Below are positions 1 to 40,828 of a DNA stretch of 41,826 nt, one piece after another. Every line of letters begins with the position of its first letter. Position 1 is the first letter of the stretch. The stretch comes from a virus. The stretch spans positions 1 through 41,826 of IMG/VR virus record IMGVR_UViG_3300046524_000592, one strand, 5' to 3'. The notes below the pieces were generated by a model. The model did not search any database. It was not told the origin of the DNA and saw only the letters and a program-made list of their open reading frames with translations. A program made the position numbers and the translations under genes.

Positions 1-321
1 CTATTTGAGCCTGACCGCCGTGCCCGTCACGAACACCACCAGCATACTGCCCTTGCCCGACGGCATGCTGATTTCAAAGTTGACCCCCACCACCGCATCG
101 GCTTGCAGTTTTGCAGCACGCTCCTTGAGCTCGTCGGTCGCCTGGGTCCGTGCTTCGCGCAAAGCTTTCTCCAGCGTCTGCGAGCGCCCGCCGAAGAAGT
201 CGCGCATCCCGGCGAACATATCCCGCACAACGTTGATGCCCTGTACCGACTCGGCGCTGACGACGTCCAGGTAGGCAGCAATCTGCCGGCCCTCGACACT
301 GTGGGTCGTGGTGATAATCAT
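1..321 (-). CDS. YbjQ/UPF0145 family protein
   Basis: A 106-residue protein of the YbjQ (DUF74/UPF0145) family, annotated in databases as a heavy-metal-binding domain protein. Its exact function is not established. It has the family pattern: an N-terminal strand, an E-S-V-x-G pattern near residues 24-28, a central helix containing RDFFGGRS-QTLEKAL, an ADAVVGVNF strand, and a C-terminal hydrophobic strand ending VTGTAVRLK. The length is normal, and the ATG at 321 is preceded by an AAGGA at 7-nt spacing. Codon use matches the host. It is chromosomal, outside the prophage, and is complete at the window edge because its stop codon is the first triplet. Confidence 0.88.
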   Translation of the reverse strand: MIITTTHSVEGRQIAAYLDVVSAESVQGINVVRDMFAGMRDFFGGRSQTLEKALREARTQATDELKERAAKLQADAVVGVNFEISMPSGKGSMLVVFVTGTAVRLK

Positions 322-2184: not shown

Positions 2185-2336
2185 TCCCTCCCTCGACCTC
2201 TGACTCAAATACAGCCTCGATCTGGAGGTTTTTCACTTCACTTGGAGTTGCGTCGCCTGCCGCCTGGCGCTAAAGTTCGTCCGCCGCTGCAAATTCAGCG
2301 ACCGGGTTTAGTCGCCCGAGCAGATAAAGGCGCAAC

Positions 2337-2368
2337 AGCGCCCTATCAGGATTGCAGGCGCTTTTTTT
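2337..2368 (+). terminator. Rho-independent terminator between the two C4-like RNAs
   Basis: AGCGCC (2337-2342) pairs with GGCGCT (2357-2362) across a 14-nt loop, and T-residues run from 2362 to 2368. It would end a transcript carrying C4 copy 1 before copy 2 begins, so the two RNAs may be separate transcription units. An alternative small hairpin, GGCGC-AACA-GCGCC, overlaps its left arm. Confidence 0.55.
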
Positions 2369-2389
2369 GCGTCCGCAGTTCTGTGTTAT

Positions 2390-2464
2390 GGCAGCTGTGT
2401 GCAGGACACCTTCGGGTGTGCCGGATTCCTTTATCTCCGGTCGACTAACCTGTGCACGGCTGTC
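2390..2464 (+). ncRNA. C4-like antisense RNA, copy 2
   Basis: A 75-nt element with an uninterrupted 16-bp closing helix (2390-2405 with 2449-2464). Inside are a hairpin ACACC-TTCG-GGTGT and a second hairpin CCGG-loop-CCGG with a pyrimidine-rich loop. Two unpaired segments match the downstream leader. Loop TTCCTTTATC (2426-2435) is complementary to 2503-2512, giving 10 bp with one G-U, and junction CGACTAA (2442-2448) is complementary to 2475-2481. In P1/P7, C4 RNA uses two such segments to block translation of the ORF that precedes and is coupled to ant. The element lies 54 nt upstream of a small ORF leading to an antirepressor gene. Confidence 0.78.
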
Positions 2465-2474
2465 ACCCATTCGT

Positions 2475-2512
2475 TTAGTCGCGAACGTGGCAGTTCTTCA
2501 TCGATAAGGGAA
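2475..2512 (+). promoter_or_regulatory. Target sites of C4-like RNA over the ribosome-binding site
   Basis: TTAGTCG (2475-2481) and GATAAGGGAA (2503-2512) are complementary to unpaired parts of the copy 2 RNA. The second includes the Shine-Dalgarno AAGGGA (2506-2511), 7 nt before ATG 2519. Pairing would hide the ribosome-binding site. Confidence 0.6.
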
Positions 2513-2518
2513 CTCACC

Positions 2519-2665
2519 ATGAACGCTCTCACTCCGCCCAAAATCCGCATACTTGCGCAGCGCCGCATGGCTCTGGCCACCCTCGCTACCCAGTCCCCAA
2601 CCAAACACCACAACCACCACATGGCCCTAGTACTCACCTTTGAAATGCTGGGAGGTGTCCAGTGA
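2519..2665 (+). CDS. Small leader ORF of the antirepressor operon
   Basis: A 48-residue frame starting at ATG 2519 behind a strong AAGGGA site. The product is basic and histidine-containing (a KHHNHH run near residue 30) with no recognised domain. Its stop overlaps the GTG start of the next ORF as GTGA (2662-2665), so translation of the two is probably coupled. In P1 the ORF called icd/orfX stands at the same place between c4 and ant, and C4 acts on it. By analogy this frame may serve as the regulated leader rather than as a functional protein; that role is inferred. Confidence 0.55.
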   Translation: MNALTPPKIRILAQRRMALATLATQSPTKHHNHHMALVLTFEMLGGVQ

Positions 2666-2883
2666 TCAGTCCAGCCTATGGTCTTTCCGAAGAAGCTATG
2701 TCGAAGCTGCACCTGCTGCGAGACTCCCTGCGTTTGCTCAAGAATTGTGCAGAAGACAGTCACTGCAAAAGCACATTCGAACCCGTATTGATGTGCAGTT
2801 TCCTGACACTTCTTGACCAACAACTGTCGTGCGTTATCGACTCCACATCCGGTATCAAGGCCAGCGTGACCAAAATTAGATGA
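2662..2883 (+). CDS. Hypothetical small protein, antirepressor operon
   Basis: A 73-residue frame starting with GTG that overlaps the previous stop by 4 nt (GTGA) and ends 9 nt before the antirepressor ATG. It is mostly helical, with a heptad-like stretch (MSKLHLLRDSLRLLKNC) and four cysteines. I do not recognise a family. Its placement suggests it is made together with the antirepressor and is under the same C4-type translational control. It could be a partner of the antirepressor or another coupling ORF. Confidence 0.6.
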   Translation: MISPAYGLSEEAMSKLHLLRDSLRLLKNCAEDSHCKSTFEPVLMCSFLTLLDQQLSCVIDSTSGIKASVTKIR

Positions 2884-2892
2884 GGCGGTCCC

Positions 2893-3723
2893 ATGCAAAA
2901 CCATCTGATGCCGGTCTCGTTCTACGAGGACACCGTTGTCCTGGTTGGCAAAGACAATGAGCCGTTTGTAGCAATGAAGCCTGTAGTGGAAAACCTCGGG
3001 CTGGCTTGGCAAGCACAGCACGCCAAACTCGCCGAAAAATTTGAATCAACCATCACGATAATCGTGATGGTTGCCGAGGACGGCAAAACCAGAGAAATGA
3101 CTTGCCTTCCGTTACGCAAGCTTCCGGCCTGGATGTACTCCATTAACCCTAACAAGGTGAATCCCGAGTTAAGGGAAAAGATCGTCCGCTACCAACAGGA
3201 ATGCGACGACGCGCTTTGGGACTACTGGACCAAGGGATCAGCCTCTCGGACCGCGATTCCGAGTATCTCCCAGCAGATCGCCCTGTCCCGCCATCGCATC
3301 ACCCTACTCAAGGAGCTGAAAAGAACGCGTGACGCTGCGATGCGCAACGCGATCCATGAACAACTCGCGCAAACCTCCCGCCAACTTGGCTTATCGATTC
3401 CAGATCTGAGCACCATCGGTACCGAAGAGCCAGCAAGACCTGAAATCCTTGCCACATTCTGGGATGCACTTGAAGAGCTGGGAGCGAAGGGAGTTGTGTA
3501 CGATCACTCGAAAAACTCGGCCCTCCTCGCATTTAGCCTCACTCATCTGGCAGAGCTGTTCGTGAAGCACGCTGTCGGAATCCCCCTCACAAGCGAGTTG
3601 AAGGGCGCACTCAAAAGCAGCCGTCAGCCGCAGTTCCTGGAAATAAAGACCATCTACAGCGCTATAGAATGCAAGTCGAAGAAATGTTGGGTTTTCAGAT
3701 CCCCCCATCGCGACCTCAATTAG
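2893..3723 (+). CDS. P22-Ant-type antirepressor with primase-like C-terminus
   Basis: A 276-residue protein. Residues 4-115 match the phage antirepressor N-terminal domain P22_AR_N (MPVSFYEDTVVLV...PFVAMKPVVENLGLAWQ; then LPLRKLPAWMYSINPNKV and YQQECDDALWDYW). Such proteins bind and inactivate phage repressors. Residues about 120-165 are a charged helical linker. Residues 187-268 (FWDALEELG, DHSKNSALLAFSLTHLAEL, KGALKSS, CWVF) resemble the last 100 residues of the prophage's own primase (33109-35832). The ATG 2893 follows AGGCGG at about 5 nt. The C4-like RNAs upstream imply translational control. The target repressor is unknown; it could be this phage's or a co-resident one. Confidence 0.85.
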   Translation: MQNHLMPVSFYEDTVVLVGKDNEPFVAMKPVVENLGLAWQAQHAKLAEKFESTITIIVMVAEDGKTREMTCLPLRKLPAWMYSINPNKVNPELREKIVRYQQECDDALWDYWTKGSASRTAIPSISQQIALSRHRITLLKELKRTRDAAMRNAIHEQLAQTSRQLGLSIPDLSTIGTEEPARPEILATFWDALEELGAKGVVYDHSKNSALLAFSLTHLAELFVKHAVGIPLTSELKGALKSSRQPQFLEIKTIYSAIECKSKKCWVFRSPHRDLN

Positions 3724-4089
3724 TCGTCCCCAGGCCCTGTTTTCACAGACAGCAATCAGCAGCTGTGTGCGCTCAGCTTCGCAGGGATCCGCAGGGTTGT
3801 AGCTAATGAAATACGCCTCCGTAGCCCTCTGCCTATCCGGTTCTGCCCTGAATGCAGGCGTGCAGAAAAATCCACCCATTTAGCCCGCGGGCGTGGTGGG
3901 GGGATGACGGCGCGCGCCACAGCTCGGACAAGTCAGCGCTCAGCCTGCTCCAAATAACTGGGCGTGTACCCCTTATTGATAAAAAAGACAACCTAACTGC
4001 AAAGTGCCACACCACAAAAAACTGTGCGACAATCTGCGATATGGAGCAGATAGGAATCTGCAAGCGATAATGGAATTGTAGGATTCTTG
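3724..4089. other. Gap without a confident gene
   Basis: These 366 bp separate the antirepressor from the AT-rich gene pair. Short frames exist on both strands, for example 3852-4070 (+) and a frame entering from 3879 (-), but none has a convincing start signal or domain, and the minus frame overlaps the antirepressor end. From about 3950 the composition shifts to AT-rich, which probably marks the left edge of the cargo insertion and its promoter. I could not pick out a clear -35/-10 pair. Confidence 0.5.
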
Positions 4090-4857
4090 ATGACTGAACT
4101 AACTGACCTTGCCAAGCTAGTTTGCGGTGGCGTAGAGATTGAAAACGCAGACCCAGACTGTGAAGTCTCACAAATTTTCCGTCATTTAAGAAGCGTACTT
4201 GAGACAGTAGTAGCAGAACTTCAATGGCTAACTAACGAGCCAGTGTCTCGAGTAACACTTTACGGACCTTTTTTAGTTAGAACGCTTTTAGAAGTCGGAG
4301 TTACAGCTCTGATAGGGAGAATGGACCCTACAAGGCTACTGATCGTAAAACGAACACAGCAACATGGTGAATACAACACCAAGCAAGCTTGGAACTCCGC
4401 CATTCGCTGGCAGGGAGATGTAGTCGACAAAAAAGTAAATGATCTTTGGACCCCAGAAAAACACTACAAGGACATGACCAAAGCACTTTTTGGCGATTAC
4501 TATGTTGACCTGTACTGGAGTTTGGCTCTTAAGAAAATTGCCGACTCCGACGCTACTGGCGGCGCATGGCTTGCTGAAATAAAAGGTATGGAAATTCAAG
4601 AGTTCTCTACTAGGCGTCGCGAATCTATTGGAAAATTATATTCCGAGTCATCTAAAGGCGTTCATTCTGAATTCGTGGTTCCGCCTGGTAGTCTCTACGA
4701 CAAACTAACAATCAGCAATCTAGTATCCAGCATCGTACAAATACTGTCTGAACTTGGATTGCTCATAAACCTAATACCTCACATCGCTTACAAGCTAAAT
4801 ACCCCACAAGCGATAGAACTATTTAACGGTATTGAAACAATAGAGGTGATGCAGTGA
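4090..4857 (+). CDS. Helical HEPN-like protein, first gene of a candidate two-gene defence system
   Basis: A 255-residue, mostly helical protein in AT-rich DNA unlike the phage backbone. A motif YSESSKGVHSEF (residues 184-195, His192) lies between predicted helices and resembles the Y-x3-S-x2-V-H core of degenerate HEPN domains. It lacks a clear R-x4-6-H ribonuclease motif, so the assignment is weak. No signal peptide or transmembrane segment is seen. ATG 4090 follows TAGGA at about 6 nt; a TTG at 4087 is an alternative. Its end overlaps the GTG of the ATPase gene (GTGA), so the two are co-translated and probably act together. The cassette sits where phiCTX carries its cytotoxin gene, between cos and Q. 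Confidence 0.7.
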   Translation: MTELTDLAKLVCGGVEIENADPDCEVSQIFRHLRSVLETVVAELQWLTNEPVSRVTLYGPFLVRTLLEVGVTALIGRMDPTRLLIVKRTQQHGEYNTKQAWNSAIRWQGDVVDKKVNDLWTPEKHYKDMTKALFGDYYVDLYWSLALKKIADSDATGGAWLAEIKGMEIQEFSTRRRESIGKLYSESSKGVHSEFVVPPGSLYDKLTISNLVSSIVQILSELGLLINLIPHIAYKLNTPQAIELFNGIETIEVMQ

Positions 4858-6362
4858 GCGAGCCAGTAGACCGAGAAATCGACAGCACTCTAATACTCGC
4901 CGCAGAAGATTGTGAGCCTGGATATTTTGATCAGTTGCACAAATTTTCATCCAGAAATGATCGAAGAGTATTGTCTAATCTAGTCGCACATGGCCCCGTA
5001 CTTTTGAGGGGAGGCCGAGGCAGCGGCAAAAGCGCGCTTATGATCGCAGCTTCTCGTCAACTTGATCCGATCGTAACTGATGCAAGTGCGGTTGGTATTT
5101 ATATGAGTCTTCGTCATGCTCCCCTATTAAAAAGTACCGGAGAGGCGTATGGGAGAATTTTGTGCACTATTGTCATAGCTAAAATCAAAAAAACGCTTGG
5201 AGACAGAGCTGTCAACTTCGATCCAGAACCCGAGCTAGGAGCGGTTCAATTCGAATTAGCGAAGTTAGCGGAGCAACTCGGAAAACGCATTGTACTTTTC
5301 TTTGATGACGCTGCACACCTTGGACGTGAAGCGTCTCTAGAAGAATTTTTTGACATTTATCGCACACTTTCAAGCAACTCTGTCTCTTGCAAAGCCTCAA
5401 TTTACCCAGGAGTTACACGCTTTGGGGTGCGCTTTGACGTGTACAATGATGCTACCGTAGTAGATGTATTCAGGAGTGAAGAAGTTCCAGATTTTGCCGA
5501 CACATTTCTGGAAGCCATGAACTCTCGATACCCTCATGAATTCAAGGAAGAAAGTTTTAGCTCCAGCCTAGACAAAAGAGCTGTAGCGGCATTTCTAGGT
5601 CAAGCCGTACTGGGCAACATGCGAAGCTTCGTATTCGCCTGCAATGCATTACAGATCCGTAGTAGCGGCAATAACAAAATAGGCTTGCCGGAACTAACAG
5701 AGACATTAATTGAGTTGGCAAGTAACTATTACTGGCCTCTACTGGATGAAATACGACCAAAGCTTGGCATATATGAACCTATGGTTGAAGCTGGCCGTAC
5801 CGTTGCAGAACTTATTTTTTATGAGTGCGGACAAAAAACCAACAACCCTAGGGACGTTATTATTCACCGAGATATTGACGAGAAACTCGCCAAACCATTG
5901 CAAATCTTAGAATATGCAGGGTTCATATCTAAACGTGAAGCGTCAAGAGCATTAAAATCTGGTGGCCGGGGAGCTCGTTACGCTCTAAACCTTTGCAGCG
6001 TCCTCGAACAGTCGACAGGAAGCAGGCTGACGCGTAGCCTTTTTGATAAATGGGCGGATCATCCGCGTGAAGAAGCCATACAATTTAGCAAAGGTAGTAA
6101 GCTATCCGAAATTACTGTCCCGACGACATCTCCTGCGACGGACTTAGCAATTTTCTCGCAGGACATTACTGCCCTCAGTAAGTCCAATGCTTACCCTTAC
6201 GGACTTAGCCCCCAAAAAATACAACTATTGACAGATGCCAAATACATTACTGTAGGTGATCTTGTTGACGCTTCAGATGAAGACTTAGATGACGTAAAGG
6301 GCATTGGTGTTGCAACGGTGTTGCGGATACGAAACGTACTTGGACAAGCAATTTGGATGTAG
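4854..6362 (+). CDS. ORC/CDC6-like P-loop ATPase with C-terminal helix-hairpin-helix, candidate defence
   Basis: A 502-residue protein. Walker A is GGRGSGKS (53-60) and Walker B is IVLFFDD (146-152). The AAA core is followed by helical lid sequence, then a probable winged helix at about 340-380 (KPLQILEYAGFISKREA...GARYALN), as in ORC/CDC6- and STAND-like ATPases. The last 50 residues contain LLTDAKYITVGDL, ASDEDL and KGIG (482-485), a helix-hairpin-helix like those of RNA polymerase alpha-CTD or DNA repair proteins, suggesting nucleic-acid binding. It starts with GTG overlapping the upstream stop. Such an ATPase beside a HEPN-like partner suggests phage sensing plus effector. The system itself is not one I can name. 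Confidence 0.72.
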   Translation: MSEPVDREIDSTLILAAEDCEPGYFDQLHKFSSRNDRRVLSNLVAHGPVLLRGGRGSGKSALMIAASRQLDPIVTDASAVGIYMSLRHAPLLKSTGEAYGRILCTIVIAKIKKTLGDRAVNFDPEPELGAVQFELAKLAEQLGKRIVLFFDDAAHLGREASLEEFFDIYRTLSSNSVSCKASIYPGVTRFGVRFDVYNDATVVDVFRSEEVPDFADTFLEAMNSRYPHEFKEESFSSSLDKRAVAAFLGQAVLGNMRSFVFACNALQIRSSGNNKIGLPELTETLIELASNYYWPLLDEIRPKLGIYEPMVEAGRTVAELIFYECGQKTNNPRDVIIHRDIDEKLAKPLQILEYAGFISKREASRALKSGGRGARYALNLCSVLEQSTGSRLTRSLFDKWADHPREEAIQFSKGSKLSEITVPTTSPATDLAIFSQDITALSKSNAYPYGLSPQKIQLLTDAKYITVGDLVDASDEDLDDVKGIGVATVLRIRNVLGQAIWM

Positions 6363-33108: not shown

Positions 33109-35832
33109 ATGAACATGGAAGACAAATTACGCGCCGAAGTTCTGCGACGACTTGAGTCTGATTACGAGCTCAAGCATCGCTCAGGGACTGATTACATGCG
33201 CGGCGGCAAGTGCCCTGCATGCAACAAGAAAGAGCTGTACACCCATCATTCCAACCCGTGGCGGATCATCTGTGGTCGCGAGAGCAAGTGCGGACAAAGC
33301 TGGCACATCAAAGAGATTTACGAAGACCTGTTCAACGACTGGAGCAAGCGAGCGCCTGCAACCAAGAATCACCCCAATGCAACGGCGCGCGCCTACCTGG
33401 AGTTCGCTCGCGGTTTTCGCCTCGATCTGATTCAGGGTTGGTTTACCCAGGACTCGTACTTCTCGGAAAAGCTCAATGAAGGCAGTGCGACGGTGCGTTT
33501 CGCCCTGGATCAAGGCGGCTACTGGGAGCGATTGATCGACCGTCCCCATCGCTTCGGCAAAATGAAAGCGCGCTTCAAACTCGGCGACAGCCCTCGCGGC
33601 TATTGGTGGTGCCCACCCTGCGTCGATCTGCTGGATGTCAAAGAGCTGTGGATTGTTGAAGGCATTTTCGACGCCATCGCCTTGGTACATAACGACGTCG
33701 CGGCTGTATCGGCCATGTCCTCCAACGCCTTCCCGGCAGAATCCCTCAAAGAGTTGGCGCGACTACGTGACGGCCAGTTGCCAAAACTGGTGTGGGCTTT
33801 GGACAACGAACCCGGCGCGCACCGCTACACCCGGCGCTGGGTCGAAATGGCCCGAGGCCTGGGTTACGAGTGCGAAGCAGCACAGATCCCGCAGACCGCT
33901 GACGGTCGGAAAATCGATTGGAATGACTTGCATCAGCGCTGGGCCTTTATCGACGACGTCGAGCAACGCGCCGAGCAAAGCAGTAGAGATCTGCGAGCTG
34001 CTCGCTATCACGGCTCGCTGCTTATCGCAGAAAGCGCCTCGGAAAAAGGCGTGCTGATGTACGACTGGCGTGAGCGCCATGAGTTTCACTTCGGCTACGA
34101 CAGTCGGTTGTACTGGTTCAAGATGGACGTGGAGAAATTCAACAAAGCCATGCAGATGCTGGAGGGGTCCGACCGACACGAAGACCAGCTACTGAATCAC
34201 GATCAACGCCGGCAGAAAGCCCTTCGCCAATGCGGCGGCGTGGTGGAAATCGCCAACTGCTACCCCCAGGCCCTGTACTTCCAGCGCAACGAAGTCACCG
34301 ACGAGTCCTGGTACTACTTCCGCGTCGACTTCCCCCACGACAGCGGCAGCGTCAAGAACACCTTCACCGGGGGCCAGGTCGCCGCGGCCAGCGAGTTCAA
34401 GAAGCGCCTGCTGAGCATGGCCGCCGGCGCCGTGTTCACCGGCAGCGGTCAGCAGCTGGACAAGATAATGAAGGACCAACTCTTCGGTCTGAAAACCGTC
34501 GAGACCATCGACTTTGTCGGCTACAGCAAACAGCACAGCTGCTACGTGTTCGGCGATATCGCCGTGCGTAACGGCATCGTCAGTGAAGTGAACAAAGAGG
34601 ACTTTTTCGAGTTCGGCAAGCTGCGGCTCAAGACCCTGCAAAAGTCGATCGCGATGCACATTCAGCGCGACAGCAAGGAATACCGCACCGACTGGCTGCC
34701 CATGCTGTGGCTGTGCTTCGGCGCCAAGGGCATTGTTGCCCTGGCGTTCTGGTTCGGCTCGCTGTTCGCCGAGCAGATCCGCGCACAGTACAAGTCCTAC
34801 CCCTTTCTCGAAGTCACCGGAGAGGCCGGCGCGGGCAAGACCACGCTGCTGACCTTCCTGTGGAAACTGCTGGGCCGCGAACACGAAGGTTTCGACCCGT
34901 CGAAATCAACCCGGGCCGGCCGGCAACGGGCCATGGGTCAGGTCTCGAACATGCCGGTGGTGCTGATCGAGGGTGACCGCAACGAGCCGGACAAGGCCCA
35001 CGCCAAGGGCTTCGACTGGGACGAACTGAAAGACTTCTTCGGCGGCGGCACGCTCGGCACCAAGGGCATGAAAACCAGTGGCAACGAGACTTACGAGCCG
35101 CCGTTTCGCGGGGCGATTGCCATTAGCCAGAACGCTGATGTCAGCGCCTCCGAGGCAATTCTTACGCGGATCATCAAGTCGCACTTCGCCCGCCCGGAAG
35201 TCACCACCGAGAGCCGTGCCGCTGCCGACAATCTGAACCTGATCCCGGTGGAGCACCTGAGCCATTTCCTGCTGCTGGCCGTGCGCGCCGAAGCGCAGAT
35301 CATGAGCAAGTTCGCCGAGCGCGTACTGGTGCACGAACAGCAGCTGCGCAAGCTCAAGGACATCCGCGTCGAACGCATCATCAAGAACCACAGCCAGCTC
35401 ATGGCCCTGGTCGACTGCCTGTGCCTGATCTGCCCGCTGGACGAAAACCAGCGAGTCACCACGCACCAGGCCCTGACGCGCATGGCCCTCGAGCGGCAGT
35501 CGGCGATCAGCGCCGATCACCCGTTGGTGGCTGAATTCTGGGAAGTCTACGAGTACCTGGAAAGCCTCGGCGAAGGCCCGCAAGTCAACCACAGCACCGA
35601 TCCCAAGCTGATCGCCATCAACCTCAACGAATTCGCCGAGCTTGCCAGCCTGCACCGCCAAAACCTGGCCGACCTCAAAACCTTGCGCGGGCTGCTGACC
35701 GAAAGCCGCAGCCGCAAGCTGCTGGAAACCAACAAAGCCACCTACAGCGCCGTGCGCGCCTCGCAGAGTGCGGGCAATGCGATGTTCAACAAACCGTTAA
35801 CCGTGCGCTGCTGGGTGTTCCAGGGCGCGTAA
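33109..35832 (+). CDS. Replication protein: zinc-ribbon/Toprim primase with P-loop helicase domain
   Basis: A 907-residue multidomain protein. A zinc ribbon uses Cys35, Cys38, Cys55 and Cys61. A Toprim catalytic domain has VEGIFDAIAL (Glu184) and VWALDNE (Asp232). A central region of unknown type follows, and then a P-loop ATPase/helicase domain with Walker A GEAGAGKTT (571-579) and an acidic strand VVLIEGDRN. The last 100 residues (FWEVYEYLESLG, NHSTDPKLIAINLNEFAEL, RGLLTESRSRKLLE, RCWVF) form a separate module also found at the end of the antirepressor at 2893-3723. It takes the place of the P2 rolling-circle initiator gpA, none of which is visible here. Confidence 0.88.
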   Translation: MNMEDKLRAEVLRRLESDYELKHRSGTDYMRGGKCPACNKKELYTHHSNPWRIICGRESKCGQSWHIKEIYEDLFNDWSKRAPATKNHPNATARAYLEFARGFRLDLIQGWFTQDSYFSEKLNEGSATVRFALDQGGYWERLIDRPHRFGKMKARFKLGDSPRGYWWCPPCVDLLDVKELWIVEGIFDAIALVHNDVAAVSAMSSNAFPAESLKELARLRDGQLPKLVWALDNEPGAHRYTRRWVEMARGLGYECEAAQIPQTADGRKIDWNDLHQRWAFIDDVEQRAEQSSRDLRAARYHGSLLIAESASEKGVLMYDWRERHEFHFGYDSRLYWFKMDVEKFNKAMQMLEGSDRHEDQLLNHDQRRQKALRQCGGVVEIANCYPQALYFQRNEVTDESWYYFRVDFPHDSGSVKNTFTGGQVAAASEFKKRLLSMAAGAVFTGSGQQLDKIMKDQLFGLKTVETIDFVGYSKQHSCYVFGDIAVRNGIVSEVNKEDFFEFGKLRLKTLQKSIAMHIQRDSKEYRTDWLPMLWLCFGAKGIVALAFWFGSLFAEQIRAQYKSYPFLEVTGEAGAGKTTLLTFLWKLLGREHEGFDPSKSTRAGRQRAMGQVSNMPVVLIEGDRNEPDKAHAKGFDWDELKDFFGGGTLGTKGMKTSGNETYEPPFRGAIAISQNADVSASEAILTRIIKSHFARPEVTTESRAAADNLNLIPVEHLSHFLLLAVRAEAQIMSKFAERVLVHEQQLRKLKDIRVERIIKNHSQLMALVDCLCLICPLDENQRVTTHQALTRMALERQSAISADHPLVAEFWEVYEYLESLGEGPQVNHSTDPKLIAINLNEFAELASLHRQNLADLKTLRGLLTESRSRKLLETNKATYSAVRASQSAGNAMFNKPLTVRCWVFQGA

Positions 35833-36838: not shown

Positions 36839-37102
36839 ATGCAAGCACAACACCCAAGCAGCAGCGTCACAGAGGCTAGCACGATCCCGCTGAAAATCGG
36901 CGATAGCGTGTCCTACTTCATTGCCAGAACCCTGGCGCACAGCATCCGGCTCAGCATTTGCGTTGGCGTTATCGAAGCCATCGATGGCCAGGTTGCGATT
37001 GTCGTATCTGGCCACGGCCGGAGCCTTCAACCGTTGAACAAGCTTTCCCGTGACGGCGAGCTAAATGCTCTGACCATCGCCTTGATCGGGAGGACACTGT
37101 GA
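36839..37102 (+). CDS. Hypothetical small phage protein
   Basis: An 87-residue protein from ATG 36839, preceded by AAGGAGC. The core is strand-rich (IPLKIGDSVSYFIARTLAHS, VGVIEAIDGQVAIVVSGHGR), suggesting a small beta-barrel. The stop overlaps the methyltransferase start (TGATG), so the two are co-translated. No family recognised. Confidence 0.68.
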   Translation: MQAQHPSSSVTEASTIPLKIGDSVSYFIARTLAHSIRLSICVGVIEAIDGQVAIVVSGHGRSLQPLNKLSRDGELNALTIALIGRTL

Positions 37103-38775
37103 TGCAGAAGCGCGTCCTCAAACACTTCCACTTCTGCTGCGGCCTCGGCGGCGGCGCCAAGGGGTTCAACCGGGCGAAACCCATTGTCGGCAACGTGCAG
37201 GGCGATTGGCAGTGCATCGGCGGTATCGATGTCGACCCGGCCGGGCTGCGCGACTTTGAGCGCTTGTCCGGAGTACCTGGCACTGTGATGGACCTGTTCA
37301 CTCGCGGCATGTACGTCGCCTATCACGGCAAGCCGCCACCGGATGACTGGAGCGAAGCGACGCCGGAGGATGTGCGTCGTTCTGCCGGCAACCAACGGCC
37401 GGACGCGGTGTTCATCTCCAGCCCCTGCAAAGGTGCCTCGGGTTTGCTCTCGGAAACCATGAGCCAGACACCGAAGTACCAGGCGCTCAACGAGCTGACA
37501 CTGCGCTGTGTGTGGCTGATGTGCGAGGCATGGAAGGACGATCCCGTCTCGCTGATCGTGTTCGAGAACGTACCGCGCCTGGCCACTCGCGGCCGGCACC
37601 TGCTGGACCAGATCAACCAGTTGCTCAACTGCCATGGTTACGCCGTCGCCGAAACCACCCACGACTGCGGCGTCATTGGCGGGCTGGCGCAAAGCCGCAA
37701 GCGCTTCCTGCTGGTGGCGCGCCACATCGCCAAGGTCCCACCGTTCCTGTACGAGCCGGAGAAGAAGACGCTCAAGTCGGTCGGCTCGATCCTCGGCCGC
37801 ATGCCGTTGGCTGGTGACATTCAAGCTGCCGGCCCAATGCACCGGGTGCCGGCGCTGCAATGGAAAACCTGGGTGCGACTCGCCCTGGTCGAAGCCGGCA
37901 AGGATTGGCGCAGCCTGAATGACCTGGCGATCGAGGATGGCTATCTTCGTGACTTGGTGATTGTTCCTGAGTACCACACCGGTTATCTCGGCGTACACGA
38001 CTGGCACGACACCCTCGGCACCGTGGCAGGCCGCAGCACGCCGACCAATGGCGCGTTCTCGGTGGCAGATCCGCGAGCGCCCGTCGGCGCCCAGCAGTAC
38101 CAGCAGTACGGTGTTCGCCGTTGGGAGGGAACCAGCGGTGCCCTGATCGGCGTGAAATCGCCAGGGCAAGGCACATTCAGCGTTGCCGACCCGCGTGATC
38201 CAGGTATTGGCCACGCGAAATACAATGTGGCCTATTGGGATGGTACTTCGCGCACAGTGATCTCCGGGAGCACCACCGGGCAAGGCGCCTTTGCCGTGCA
38301 GGACCCGCGCCCGGGTATGAAGCGGACCAAGGGCGACGCCTACCTGACGGGTGGTCATTACGGTGTCGTTGATTGGGCTGACCGCTGCGGCGCCGTTGCA
38401 GCTTGCGCCCGACAGGACAACGGGCGTTGGTCGGTCGCGGATCCGCGTATGCCCGAAGCCAACGAACGCCTGACCTGCGTGATCGAAAGCCTCGATGGCA
38501 CTTGGCACCGTCCCTTCACCACGCTGGAGCTGGCTGCGCTGCAAAGCCTGATCGAGCCCGAGGAGCAGTTGGAGCTAGACGGACTTAGCGATCAGGCATG
38601 GCGCGAGCGCATTGGCAACGCCGTGCCGCCAGCTGCGGCCGAAGCCATCGCCCACGTCATGGGCACCACTCTACTGCTGGCCGCTGCCGGCGAAACCTTC
38701 ATGCTCAGCAGCATGCCGATCTGGGTTCAGCCCGTGGCGGTAGGCCTGAGCGTTTCTCAGCAGGTGACCCCATGA
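37102..38775 (+). CDS. C5-cytosine DNA methyltransferase with repetitive recognition region
   Basis: A 557-residue (ATG 37102) C5-cytosine methyltransferase. Numbering from the GTG at 37099: motif I FCCGLGG (12-18), IV SSPCKG with the catalytic Cys110, VI FENV (155-158), VIII AQSRKRFLLVA (197-207), X RIGNAVPPAAAEAI (504-517). Between VIII and X, residues 296-450 contain four related modules of 30 residues (with variable spacers), each starting Y-x-V-x-x-W and ending V-x-DPR (ends at 326, 366, 404, 450). No partner nuclease gene is nearby, so it is a solitary enzyme likely to protect phage DNA from host restriction. Confidence 0.9.
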   Translation: MQKRVLKHFHFCCGLGGGAKGFNRAKPIVGNVQGDWQCIGGIDVDPAGLRDFERLSGVPGTVMDLFTRGMYVAYHGKPPPDDWSEATPEDVRRSAGNQRPDAVFISSPCKGASGLLSETMSQTPKYQALNELTLRCVWLMCEAWKDDPVSLIVFENVPRLATRGRHLLDQINQLLNCHGYAVAETTHDCGVIGGLAQSRKRFLLVARHIAKVPPFLYEPEKKTLKSVGSILGRMPLAGDIQAAGPMHRVPALQWKTWVRLALVEAGKDWRSLNDLAIEDGYLRDLVIVPEYHTGYLGVHDWHDTLGTVAGRSTPTNGAFSVADPRAPVGAQQYQQYGVRRWEGTSGALIGVKSPGQGTFSVADPRDPGIGHAKYNVAYWDGTSRTVISGSTTGQGAFAVQDPRPGMKRTKGDAYLTGGHYGVVDWADRCGAVAACARQDNGRWSVADPRMPEANERLTCVIESLDGTWHRPFTTLELAALQSLIEPEEQLELDGLSDQAWRERIGNAVPPAAAEAIAHVMGTTLLLAAAGETFMLSSMPIWVQPVAVGLSVSQQVTP

Positions 38776-39125: not shown

Positions 39126-39316
39126 ACAACAGCAAATCCTTCCCTTGGAATCTGGACCTGACCAGCACCTGCGACCAATGCGGCAAGTTTCGCGCCCACG
39201 GTAATCATCAAAAGTGCAGTAAGGCACGCCAAGCGCTGAATGCTGAGCGGCGCGCCAAGGAAGCTCCGACGCCTAGAAAAGGCGTGGGTTTGTTCTGGTT
39301 ACTCCGCCAGGAGTGA
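39122..39316 (+). CDS. Small zinc-finger-like protein
   Basis: A 64-residue basic protein with CDQCGKFRAHGNHQKCSK (residues 17-34), a possible C-x2-C...H/C metal site, and a basic C-terminal half. It overlaps the Arc-type gene by 4 nt (ATGA) and is the last gene before a terminator. Unknown function; phages often encode such small Cys-containing proteins near int. Confidence 0.68.
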   Translation: MNNSKSFPWNLDLTSTCDQCGKFRAHGNHQKCSKARQALNAERRAKEAPTPRKGVGLFWLLRQE

Positions 39317-39351
39317 TCGGCAAAACTCAGCTGCCTAACAACCGCAACGAG

Positions 39352-39376
39352 AAAGGCCCGGCAACGGGTCTTTTTT
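39352..39376 (+). terminator. Rho-independent terminator ending the early operon
   Basis: AAAGGCCCG-GCAA-CGGGTCTTT followed by more T residues: a 9-bp stem with a GNRA loop. It stands between the small zinc-finger gene and int. It also falls inside the longest int reading frame, which argues for the int start at 39424. Confidence 0.85.
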
Positions 39377-39423
39377 CTTTCAGCTTGCTGGGCGGTACCG
39401 TCATCAATCGCGCGGGGACGCAA

Positions 39424-40590
39424 ATGGCAGAAGGTATAGAAATCCGTGGCAACTCCATACGGATTCATTTTCGTTTCAACGGCAAACGCTACAAAGAGCT
39501 TATGCCCGGCGGCAACACAGCGGCCAACAGGGAACAGGCACAGCGCCTGATCAGCATCATCCGCTATGAAATCCAGGCTGGCTGCTTCAACTACAGCCGG
39601 CATTTTCCCGACTCCCCCCACCTGGTCGAAAACACTTTCGGCCACTACCTCGACCTCTGGCTGAAAATCAAAGCCAACAATGTCGCAGCCACGTCTTATC
39701 GGGGCTATGCCAACAAAGCCGAGGTCCACGTCAGACCTCGCTGGGGCAAGGTTCAGATTGACCAGATAGATCATCTGGATTTGCAAGAGTGGGTGCAGGA
39801 CACCCTGTCGAAGCGCCTGAAGAACAAAACCATCCGCGACATCATCAGCAACGTCAGGCAGATCTTCCGGCTATACCGAACTCGCAAGAAAGTCGCTCAT
39901 GATCCGACTGAGGGGCTCTTCGTCCGCCTGCCCGATCCGGAAGCCCCTGACCCGTTCACCCGGGCGGAAATCAAGCAGATCCTCGACACACCCACTGCGC
40001 GGACGCACGAACTGCTGATGGTGCAGTTCATGATTTGGGCCGGTCCTCGTGTTTCCGAGACCATCGCCCTGGCATGGGAGGATGTCGACCTGGCGCAAGG
40101 GACCGTGACCTTTCGTCGCTCCAAAGTGCGCGGTGCCTACCGGGTGACGAAGACCCGACGCTCGACGCGAAAGGTCCGCTTGCTCGAGCCTGCGTGGGAC
40201 GCACTACGCAAGATCGACGCACTGACCCGGAACAAGGTGGCGGAAACGGTCGATATCGTTGAGCGGGATAACAAGACAGTCCGCCAGCACACGCTGCACT
40301 TTGTCTTCGTCAACACGAAAAGCGGCTTACCGCACGCCAATGACTTCGTGGTGCGGGATCGGTTTTTCAAGGCTCACTTGCTCGCAGCAGGAGTTCGCTA
40401 TCGCGGGCCTGGGCAGTGCCGACACACGTACGCCAGCCAGTTGCTGACGACGGGAGTGGCCTCTATTGACTGGATTGCCGAACAGATGGGGCATACCAAC
40501 GGAAACATGATCCGCCAGCACTACGGGACCTGGATTAATGAAGACGGTCCGGACGTCGTTGGCATGCTTCAGCACGCGTTAAAACTGTAA
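39424..40590 (+). CDS. int: Tyrosine-recombinase integrase
   Basis: A 388-residue phage integrase. It has an N-terminal arm-binding domain (about 1-65), a SAM-like core-binding domain (70-160) and the catalytic domain (175-388). Catalytic positions are Arg209 (WAGPRVSE), Arg333 (QCRHTYAS; the usual box II His is Gly330, as in a known subgroup with Y/G at this place), His356 (MGHTNGN) and Tyr367 (RQHYGTW). ATG 39424 with GCGGGGA upstream is chosen because the in-frame extension to 39313 runs through a terminator. It lies 63 bp from attR and should recombine the tRNA-Ser att sites. Confidence 0.93.
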   Translation: MAEGIEIRGNSIRIHFRFNGKRYKELMPGGNTAANREQAQRLISIIRYEIQAGCFNYSRHFPDSPHLVENTFGHYLDLWLKIKANNVAATSYRGYANKAEVHVRPRWGKVQIDQIDHLDLQEWVQDTLSKRLKNKTIRDIISNVRQIFRLYRTRKKVAHDPTEGLFVRLPDPEAPDPFTRAEIKQILDTPTARTHELLMVQFMIWAGPRVSETIALAWEDVDLAQGTVTFRRSKVRGAYRVTKTRRSTRKVRLLEPAWDALRKIDALTRNKVAETVDIVERDNKTVRQHTLHFVFVNTKSGLPHANDFVVRDRFFKAHLLAAGVRYRGPGQCRHTYASQLLTTGVASIDWIAEQMGHTNGNMIRQHYGTWINEDGPDVVGMLQHALKL

Positions 40591-40653: not shown

Positions 40654-40761
40654 TCCCATATCACCCATTTTCCACACGCCAAAAACCACAAACCCCCGAC
40701 TTTCTCTAGGAAAATCAGGGGTTTGTGTTTGCAGAATGTGGCGGTGAAGGAGAGATTCGAA
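40654..40761. repeat. attR: right copy of 108-bp att direct repeat
   Basis: Identical to 1370-1477. It contains the tRNA-Ser terminator and the tRNA 3' portion (T-arm to CCA). Because the tRNA continues intact to 40828, this copy restores a functional tRNA after integration. Confidence 0.95.
40681..40727 (-). terminator. tRNA-Ser terminator
   Basis: A 10-bp stem CACAAACCCC/GGGGTTTGTG (40687-40696 with 40718-40727), followed on the minus strand by a T-run (AAAAA at 40681-40685 on the plus strand). It ends tRNA-Ser transcription and is part of the att repeat, so the phage carries a copy of it. Confidence 0.88.
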
Positions 40762-40828
40762 CTCTCGATACAGTTTCCTGTATACACACTTTCCAGGCGT
40801 GCTCCTTAAGCCACTCGGACACTTCACC
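40739..40828 (-). tRNA. tRNA-Ser(GGA)
   Basis: A 90-nt class II tRNA with encoded CCA (40739-40741). Acceptor stem GGTGAAG/CTTCACC, discriminator G, anticodon stem CACGC/GTGTG around loop CTGGAAA (anticodon GGA), a long variable arm and T-arm GGAGAG-TTCGAAT-type sequence. It reads serine UCC/UCU codons. The prophage att repeat covers its 3' 23 nt. Confidence 0.95.

Follow-up and report, generated by a model that had tools for sequence, protein, structure and literature searches.

The question raised by this locus is whether a short structured RNA upstream of an antirepressor gene is part of a C4-type immunity system like that of the phages P1 and P7, and which other elements belong to such a system. 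The window, by which we mean the whole stretch of 41,826 nucleotides that was analysed, corresponds to one IMG/VR virus record. An integrase gene that adjoins a tRNA-Ser gene, the recurrence near 1400-1513 of a fragment of this sequence, and host-like genes outside the prophage part suggest an integrated prophage. A preliminary description had proposed that a C4-type antisense RNA controls a P22-type antirepressor in a P2-like prophage. The P2-like character is borne out by a gpP-type terminase, a portal protein and gpV, and the closest annotated DNA relatives of the C4 region are Pseudomonas phages. The proposed C4-type antisense control is supported by the present analysis. However, the description was incomplete, as the a1b1 element, the terminator at 2337-2368 and a second C4 RNA had been overlooked. 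Altogether, the stretch from 2248 to 3723 very probably makes up a complete immunity operon of the C4 type in a P2-like Pseudomonas prophage, with the C4 RNA repressing the antirepressor gene ant. The features of this operon and of the prophage are the following.

2248-2276, + strand: predicted promoter of the a1b1-C4-ant operon (TTGCGT at 2248-2253, 17 nt, TAAAGT at 2271-2276)
2270-2322, + strand: c4-a1b1 element (RF03163, 48.6 bits, cut-off 46.7)
2283-2368, + strand: short IsrK-like RNA, made up of a pair of hairpins carrying a1 and b1 and of the intrinsic terminator
2308-2314, + strand: a1 target in a hairpin loop, identical in sequence to a2, 7 bp with a'
2322-2330, + strand: b1 target, 9 bp with b', its last 2 nt beginning the competing (antiterminator) stem
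2337-2368, + strand: intrinsic terminator between b1 and C4-2 (AGCGCC at 2337-2342, GGCGCT at 2357-2362, then a T run)
2384-2470, + strand: C4-2, C4 antisense RNA (Rfam RF01695)
2426-2436, + strand: b' loop of C4-2, TTCCTTTATCT
2442-2448, + strand: a' segment of C4-2, CGACTAA
2475-2481, + strand: a2 target, TTAGTCG, pairing with a'
2503-2512, + strand: b2 target over the Shine-Dalgarno sequence of ORF48, pairing with b'
2519-2665, + strand: ORF48, leader ORF with a start site predicted to be covered by C4, similar to 52-aa leader ORFs of Pseudomonas C4 operons
2662-2883, + strand: ORF73, coupled to ORF48; a similar ORF follows the C4 of locus L007
2893-3723, + strand: ant, intact gene for a P22-type antirepressor of 276 aa
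30439-30846, - strand: XRE/CI-type repressor, the presumed target of Ant (HTH_3, 3.7e-8)
39313-40590: integrase, adjoining tRNA-Ser
40739-40828: tRNA-Ser, adjoining the integrase

Elsewhere in the prophage, two adjoining + strand ORFs lie between ant and the portal gene (4087-6362). One product (255 aa) matched no family, and the other (502 aa) gave weak hits to AAA_16 and HHH; PADLOC gave no match for this pair, which may represent a cargo or defence pair. Near the integrase end, 37099-38772 encodes a C-5 cytosine methyltransferase with weak similarity to Druantia-type and type II methylases.

The C4-2 RNA and its operon

The preliminary description had placed a 16-bp helix enclosing two hairpins at 2390-2464, and exactly this structure was recovered upon folding, with -40.6 kcal/mol and a z-score of -6.2; none of 200 dinucleotide shuffles folded as well. 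In this long closing helix with its two hairpins, the b' and a' loops are left unpaired. The Rfam search that had been recommended as a check gave a full-length alignment of the C4 model to 2384-2470 with 79.9 bits (cut-off 45 bits) and zero broken pairs, and the membership of C4-2 in the C4 family is secure. The proposed span of the RNA was correct with respect to the structure, but homology to c4 of P1 predicts a slightly longer mature RNA of approximately 2390-2467. The 5' GG expected of a mature C4 is present at 2390.

The two complementarities to the leader of ORF48 were found at the previously described positions, a' (2442-2448) pairing with a2 (2475-2481) over 7 bp and b' (2426-2435) with b2 (2503-2512) over 10 bp, including one G-U. 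When the leader (2471-2518) was shuffled 20,000 times with its dinucleotides preserved, 266 of the shuffles reached the a match and 28 the b match, and none had both in order. The same loops of C4-2 also pair with the upstream a1/b1. Counted strictly, the a2b2 match is modest (7+5 Watson-Crick pairs, or 7+10 counting G-U). The joint Watson-Crick score of C4-2 is 12 on its own a2b2, which is below the family median of 15, and 16 on its own a1b1; these scores are equalled by 1% and 0% of the non-cognate targets, respectively.

To place these values, C4 RNAs were gathered from viral contigs, phage records and Pseudomonas genomes, and a' and b' of 106 distinct loci were scored by Watson-Crick matches against their own targets and those of all other loci. 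This match-based cognate score was used in place of a noisier energy-based one. A score of at least 14 was reached on the own a2b2 by 76 of the 106 C4s versus 0.94% of the non-cognate pairs, and on the own a1b1 by 73 of the 106 versus 0.83%, it being noted that the loci are mutually related and that the cognate counts are not independent. Both target pairs thus track the loops as the loops change, which matches the prediction of base-pairing. The comparison of relatives that had been suggested as a test of covariation therefore came out in favour of the C4 reading: loops and targets vary together, C4 and ant stay linked in homologous phages, and the target sites are preserved. A matching target is located directly downstream of the C4 in nearly all of the 106 loci.

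As had been claimed, ORF48 and ORF73 overlap by GTGA, and the 73-codon ORF is followed by an antirepressor gene with a P22_AR_N domain (E = 1.7e-45); among the PHROG families, its product matches phrog_524, anti-repressor Ant (2e-62). The claim that the XRE repressor lacks a LexA-type cleavage domain also held, as HTH domains were the only ones detected in it and a peptidase domain was not found. ORF48 itself matched no Pfam or PHROG family. It is 50-64% identical to the N-terminal 40 residues of a leader protein of 52 aa that is encoded 3' of many Pseudomonas C4s, and its identification with Icd of P1 was rejected, because it belongs to no Pfam or PHROG family and resembles this separate leader family.

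The TTGnnn-16..18-TAnnnT form of the promoter is found just 5' of the first hairpin in 28 of 36 anchorable loci, compared to 0.5 in shuffles. A scan for promoters with the sigma-70 consensus gave nothing above threshold, and the site at 2248-2276 is weak by the E. coli consensus. The assignment of this promoter is therefore based on the comparison of relatives.

The immI region of P1 and P7 (c4-icd-ant) resembles the window in its succession of a1, b1, c4, a2, b2, a coupled leader ORF and an antirepressor gene, the annotated order in P1 being a1, b1, c4, a2, b2, icd (73 codons), ant1. The gap between a1 and b1 measures 7 nt in both; between a2 and b2, the window has 21 nt, against the 22 nt of P1. 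The icd gene overlaps ant1 as ORF48 overlaps ORF73, and a hairpin with a T run likewise separates b1 from c4 in P1. Unlike in P1 and P7, the leader ORF of the window is not Icd, the extra ORF73 precedes ant, Ant is of the P22_AR_N type, the phage is P2-like, and there is an additional C4 upstream. The parallel to c4-icd-ant of P1 drawn in the preliminary description consequently stands for the order of the parts, but not for the identity of the leader ORF as Icd. The sar/ant system of P22 is comparable in that an antisense RNA represses a related antirepressor, with only the Ant domain in common. The sar RNA of P22 is a different RNA from C4 and has a different arrangement.

By analogy with P1, we infer that the window phage uses the C4 mechanism. 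One promoter would give rise to a transcript with a1b1, the terminator, C4, a2b2, the two coupled small ORFs and ant. The C4 RNA, predicted to be about 77 nt long, would be excised from it, as done by RNase P in P1. Pairing of b' with b2 and of a' with a2 would then cover the leader ORF's start site; owing to the translational coupling, ant would thereby stay off during lysogeny. Once made, Ant would inactivate the XRE repressor and thereby cause phage induction.

It is conceivable that the module is a genuine C4 relative that does not function here, either in a decayed prophage or with an RNA that is not processed. The below-median strict a2b2 match, a terminator for which the preference stays moderate even upon binding of C4 (see below), and an adjacent C4-1 unit without its targets would be in line with this. 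Yet, a1, a2, b1, b2, all helices, the promoter, the leader ORF, the coupling and a 276-aa ant have all been kept. Moreover, a1 and a2 (TTAGTCG) and a' all depart from the commoner TTGGCGA type, which indicates that they changed jointly. We therefore regard a non-functional module as very unlikely and retain the interpretation as an operon under C4 control.

The a1b1 element and its relation to IsrK

In P1, a1 and b1 are annotated merely as 'putative' targets. In the window, the terminator sits between a1b1 and C4, so that the segment 2283-2368 resembles the Salmonella small RNA IsrK. Against the IsrK model (RF01394), it scores 45.8 bits (E 2.2e-8), slightly under the cut-off of 50, which the related loci L004, L008, L009 and L031 exceed. 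An intrinsic terminator between b1 and C4 was found in 53 of the 92 loci with a1b1 versus 0.95 in shuffles, and a competing stem begins within the final 2-3 nt of b1 in 34 of these 92 loci.

Binding of C4 was modelled by forcing a1 and b1 to be unpaired, with blocks of equal size as controls; the model is thermodynamic and does not include folding kinetics. Across 59 loci, the predicted terminator probability rose from 0.49 to 0.85 when a1 and b1 were blocked, compared to 0.42 with control blocks (Wilcoxon p-value of 1e-10). The increase was larger than 0.3 in 32 of the 59 loci, and a decrease of that size occurred in none; about half of the relatives showed no large change. For P1, the probability went from 0.55 to 0.79, and for the window from 0.01 to 0.49, so that even the C4-bound fold of the window reaches no more than 0.49. 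In Gifsy-1, the terminator is strong either way and blocking a1 and b1 changes nothing. The model thus predicts that, in the window, in P1 and in about half of the tested relatives, C4 bound to a1/b1 removes the competing fold and favours the terminator. This suggests that a1b1 may serve as an attenuator: C4 would also pair with a1/b1 on the nascent RNA and favour termination ahead of C4, and this termination would release an IsrK-like RNA able to soak up C4. Such a decoy role is suggested by the predicted folds together with the experiments on IsrK of Salmonella.

In the Gifsy-1 prophage, IsrK acts in trans to switch on the translation of the AnrP antirepressor, and processing of the read-through transcript yields the stable RNA STnc1160 (PMC4825925). 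We found that a C4 RNA (69 bits; L107 34131-34316, - strand) is located directly 3' of IsrK, overlapping the published 'orf45', and that IsrK contains a1b1. With nucleotide 1 of IsrK set at position 34316 of NC_010392, from which the mutation positions were counted, the published pairs G28/C162 and G31/C159 fall into C4 elements, G28 and G31 into a1 (TTGGCGT) and C162 and C159 into a' (ACGCCAA). A change in a' was reported to derepress strongly, IsrK mutated in a1 lost its activity in trans, and extra IsrK raised transcription 8-fold and translation 139-fold (PMC4825925). This is how a C4 decoy combined with a C4-dependent terminator would behave. The isrK-orf45-anrP locus resembles the window in having a1b1 plus terminator (IsrK), then C4 and then its target, which in Gifsy-1 covers the antirepressor gene's start. 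It differs from the window in that anrP directly follows the C4 target and 'orf45' overlaps the C4 itself. The authors of the IsrK study likened the locus to CI/seqA of phage P4 and suggested that STnc1160 might affect termination; phage P1 is not mentioned there (PMC4825925). In our literature search, which covered mainly open papers, isrK and C4 appeared side by side only in a Xylella table.

The CI RNA of P4 with seqA and seqC is a small antisense RNA that is cut from a leader, has targets upstream and downstream, and represses through premature termination (PMC4825925). It shares with the C4 of the window its origin from a leader and the presence of one target on each side. In contrast to the latter, it controls replication genes, and the likeness drawn here is one of arrangement.

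A second C4 RNA upstream of the operon

The additional C4 RNA, C4-1, lies upstream of the operon within a small unit of its own.

1990-2018, + strand: promoter-like site of the C4-1 unit (TTGCGT at 1990-1995, 17 nt, TAGAGT at 2013-2018)
2104-2190, + strand: C4-1, second C4 RNA without a target in cis (RF01695, 63.3 bits, cut-off 45)
2213-2230, + strand: terminator-like hairpin after C4-1, weak, since about 1 site of this kind is expected there from shuffled sequence

A cognate a1b1 or a2b2 of C4-1 was sought in cis and not found. C4-1 as a back-up of C4-2 was rejected, because its scores on the targets of C4-2 do not exceed 11 and 10, values that are common among non-cognate pairs.

The RNA of C4-1 has been retained and its targets lost, which suggests action in trans. 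C4-1 could then be a free-standing antisense RNA retained because it silences antirepressor operons that other phages or satellites carry, thereby conferring cross-immunity. It is 84% identical to the C4 of another Pseudomonas element (L133, G407:C1:846260), despite flanks whose identity is at the random level (0.54 over the 100 nt before and 0.43 over the 60 nt after, versus averages of 0.72 and 0.68 for C4 pairs of this similarity). Its b' and a' are nearly those of L133, and they fit the L133 targets with 15 pairs, the own C4 of L133 reaching 16 on a2b2 and 15 on a1b1. Furthermore, 6 of the 7 changed helix pairs still pair, one of them through a double change, and the promoter-like site is identical in form and spacing to the conserved promoter of the relatives. 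However, a fit to some non-self target of about the quality seen between C4-1 and L133 is found for half of all C4s, the preservation of the helix is not significant as proof of selection (P = 0.09), and close copies with the same loops were present neither in the viral contigs nor in 25 genomes of one genus. We therefore consider cross-immunity possible but doubtful. In an alternative view, C4-1 is what is left, in a state of decay, of an older C4 module that the present one replaced or was inserted next to. The absence of its own a1, terminator and a2b2 fits this view, and there is an apparent parallel at locus L052 (G015:C23, 71060 and 71374), where a partly decayed C4 precedes an intact C4 unit by 314 nt and has lost b2 and a1b1 but kept a2 and a terminator-like stretch. 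On the other hand, decay would not be expected to randomise both flanks and leave just the RNA intact. As compared with action in trans, the relic is the more cautious reading and seems somewhat the better bet. Both views apply to C4-1 only, and neither is a rival to the explanation given for the main module.

C4 RNAs in phages and Pseudomonas genomes

Of the 59 genomes sampled from one Pseudomonas genus, at least 53 carry C4 RNAs above the cut-off. The median number per sampled Pseudomonas genome is at least about 17 and the maximum at least 54 (lower bounds of 54 in G095, 43 in G101, 42 in both G051 and G065, and 27 in G015). For Acinetobacter baumannii, C4-like RNAs have been reported in many copies per genome, with varied a' segments and RNase P-like processing in RNA-seq data, and were described as small RNAs that may regulate host genes (PMC5320573). 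Unlike in that description, nearly all C4s of the Pseudomonas genomes sampled here have a matching target close by on the downstream side.

A P22-type ant gene is located within 2.6 kb of the C4 in only 17 of the 106 loci, the other C4s preceding different proteins. In phiAH14b and U10, C4 leads into operons that reach a primase gene. The respective records (L100, phiAH14b, 16.8 kb; L102, vB_Pae_U10, 10.2 kb) are small phage records with an integrase and a primase, in which C4 precedes the replication operon, the position taken in P4 by the CI RNA. Many C4s precede a small ORF beginning with MLKIVPDPP or MKKIVPDPP that is not an antirepressor (L050, L056, L059, L066, L075, L079, L081, L090 and others; G014, G015). 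At L055, L057, L068, L070, L071, L086 and L089 (G011, G012), ORFs with MHDAYTP... or ...RAVMIDNQPWF... are found directly 3' of the C4 targets, and these look like Bro-N antirepressors.

The C4 device as such is known from P1, and the operon of the window is a well-supported further example that provides a clean, testable C4 system in Pseudomonas. What may be new is the proposed attenuator and decoy role of a1b1, by which the a1/b1 sites would gain a likely job, and the free-standing second C4. The IsrK switch of Salmonella is also tied to the C4 family of P1, a link absent from the IsrK paper (PMC4825925). A wider view would be that C4 loci are two-way RNA switches, with attenuation, an IsrK-like decoy that can trigger induction and, in some phages, a solo C4 of foreign specificity as immunity against rival phages; taken as a whole, we rate this as rather unlikely. 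Lastly, with up to 54 C4s per sampled Pseudomonas genome, prophages that share a host could engage in cross-talk through their C4s, which might amount to a large and so far unstudied level of immunity between phages.
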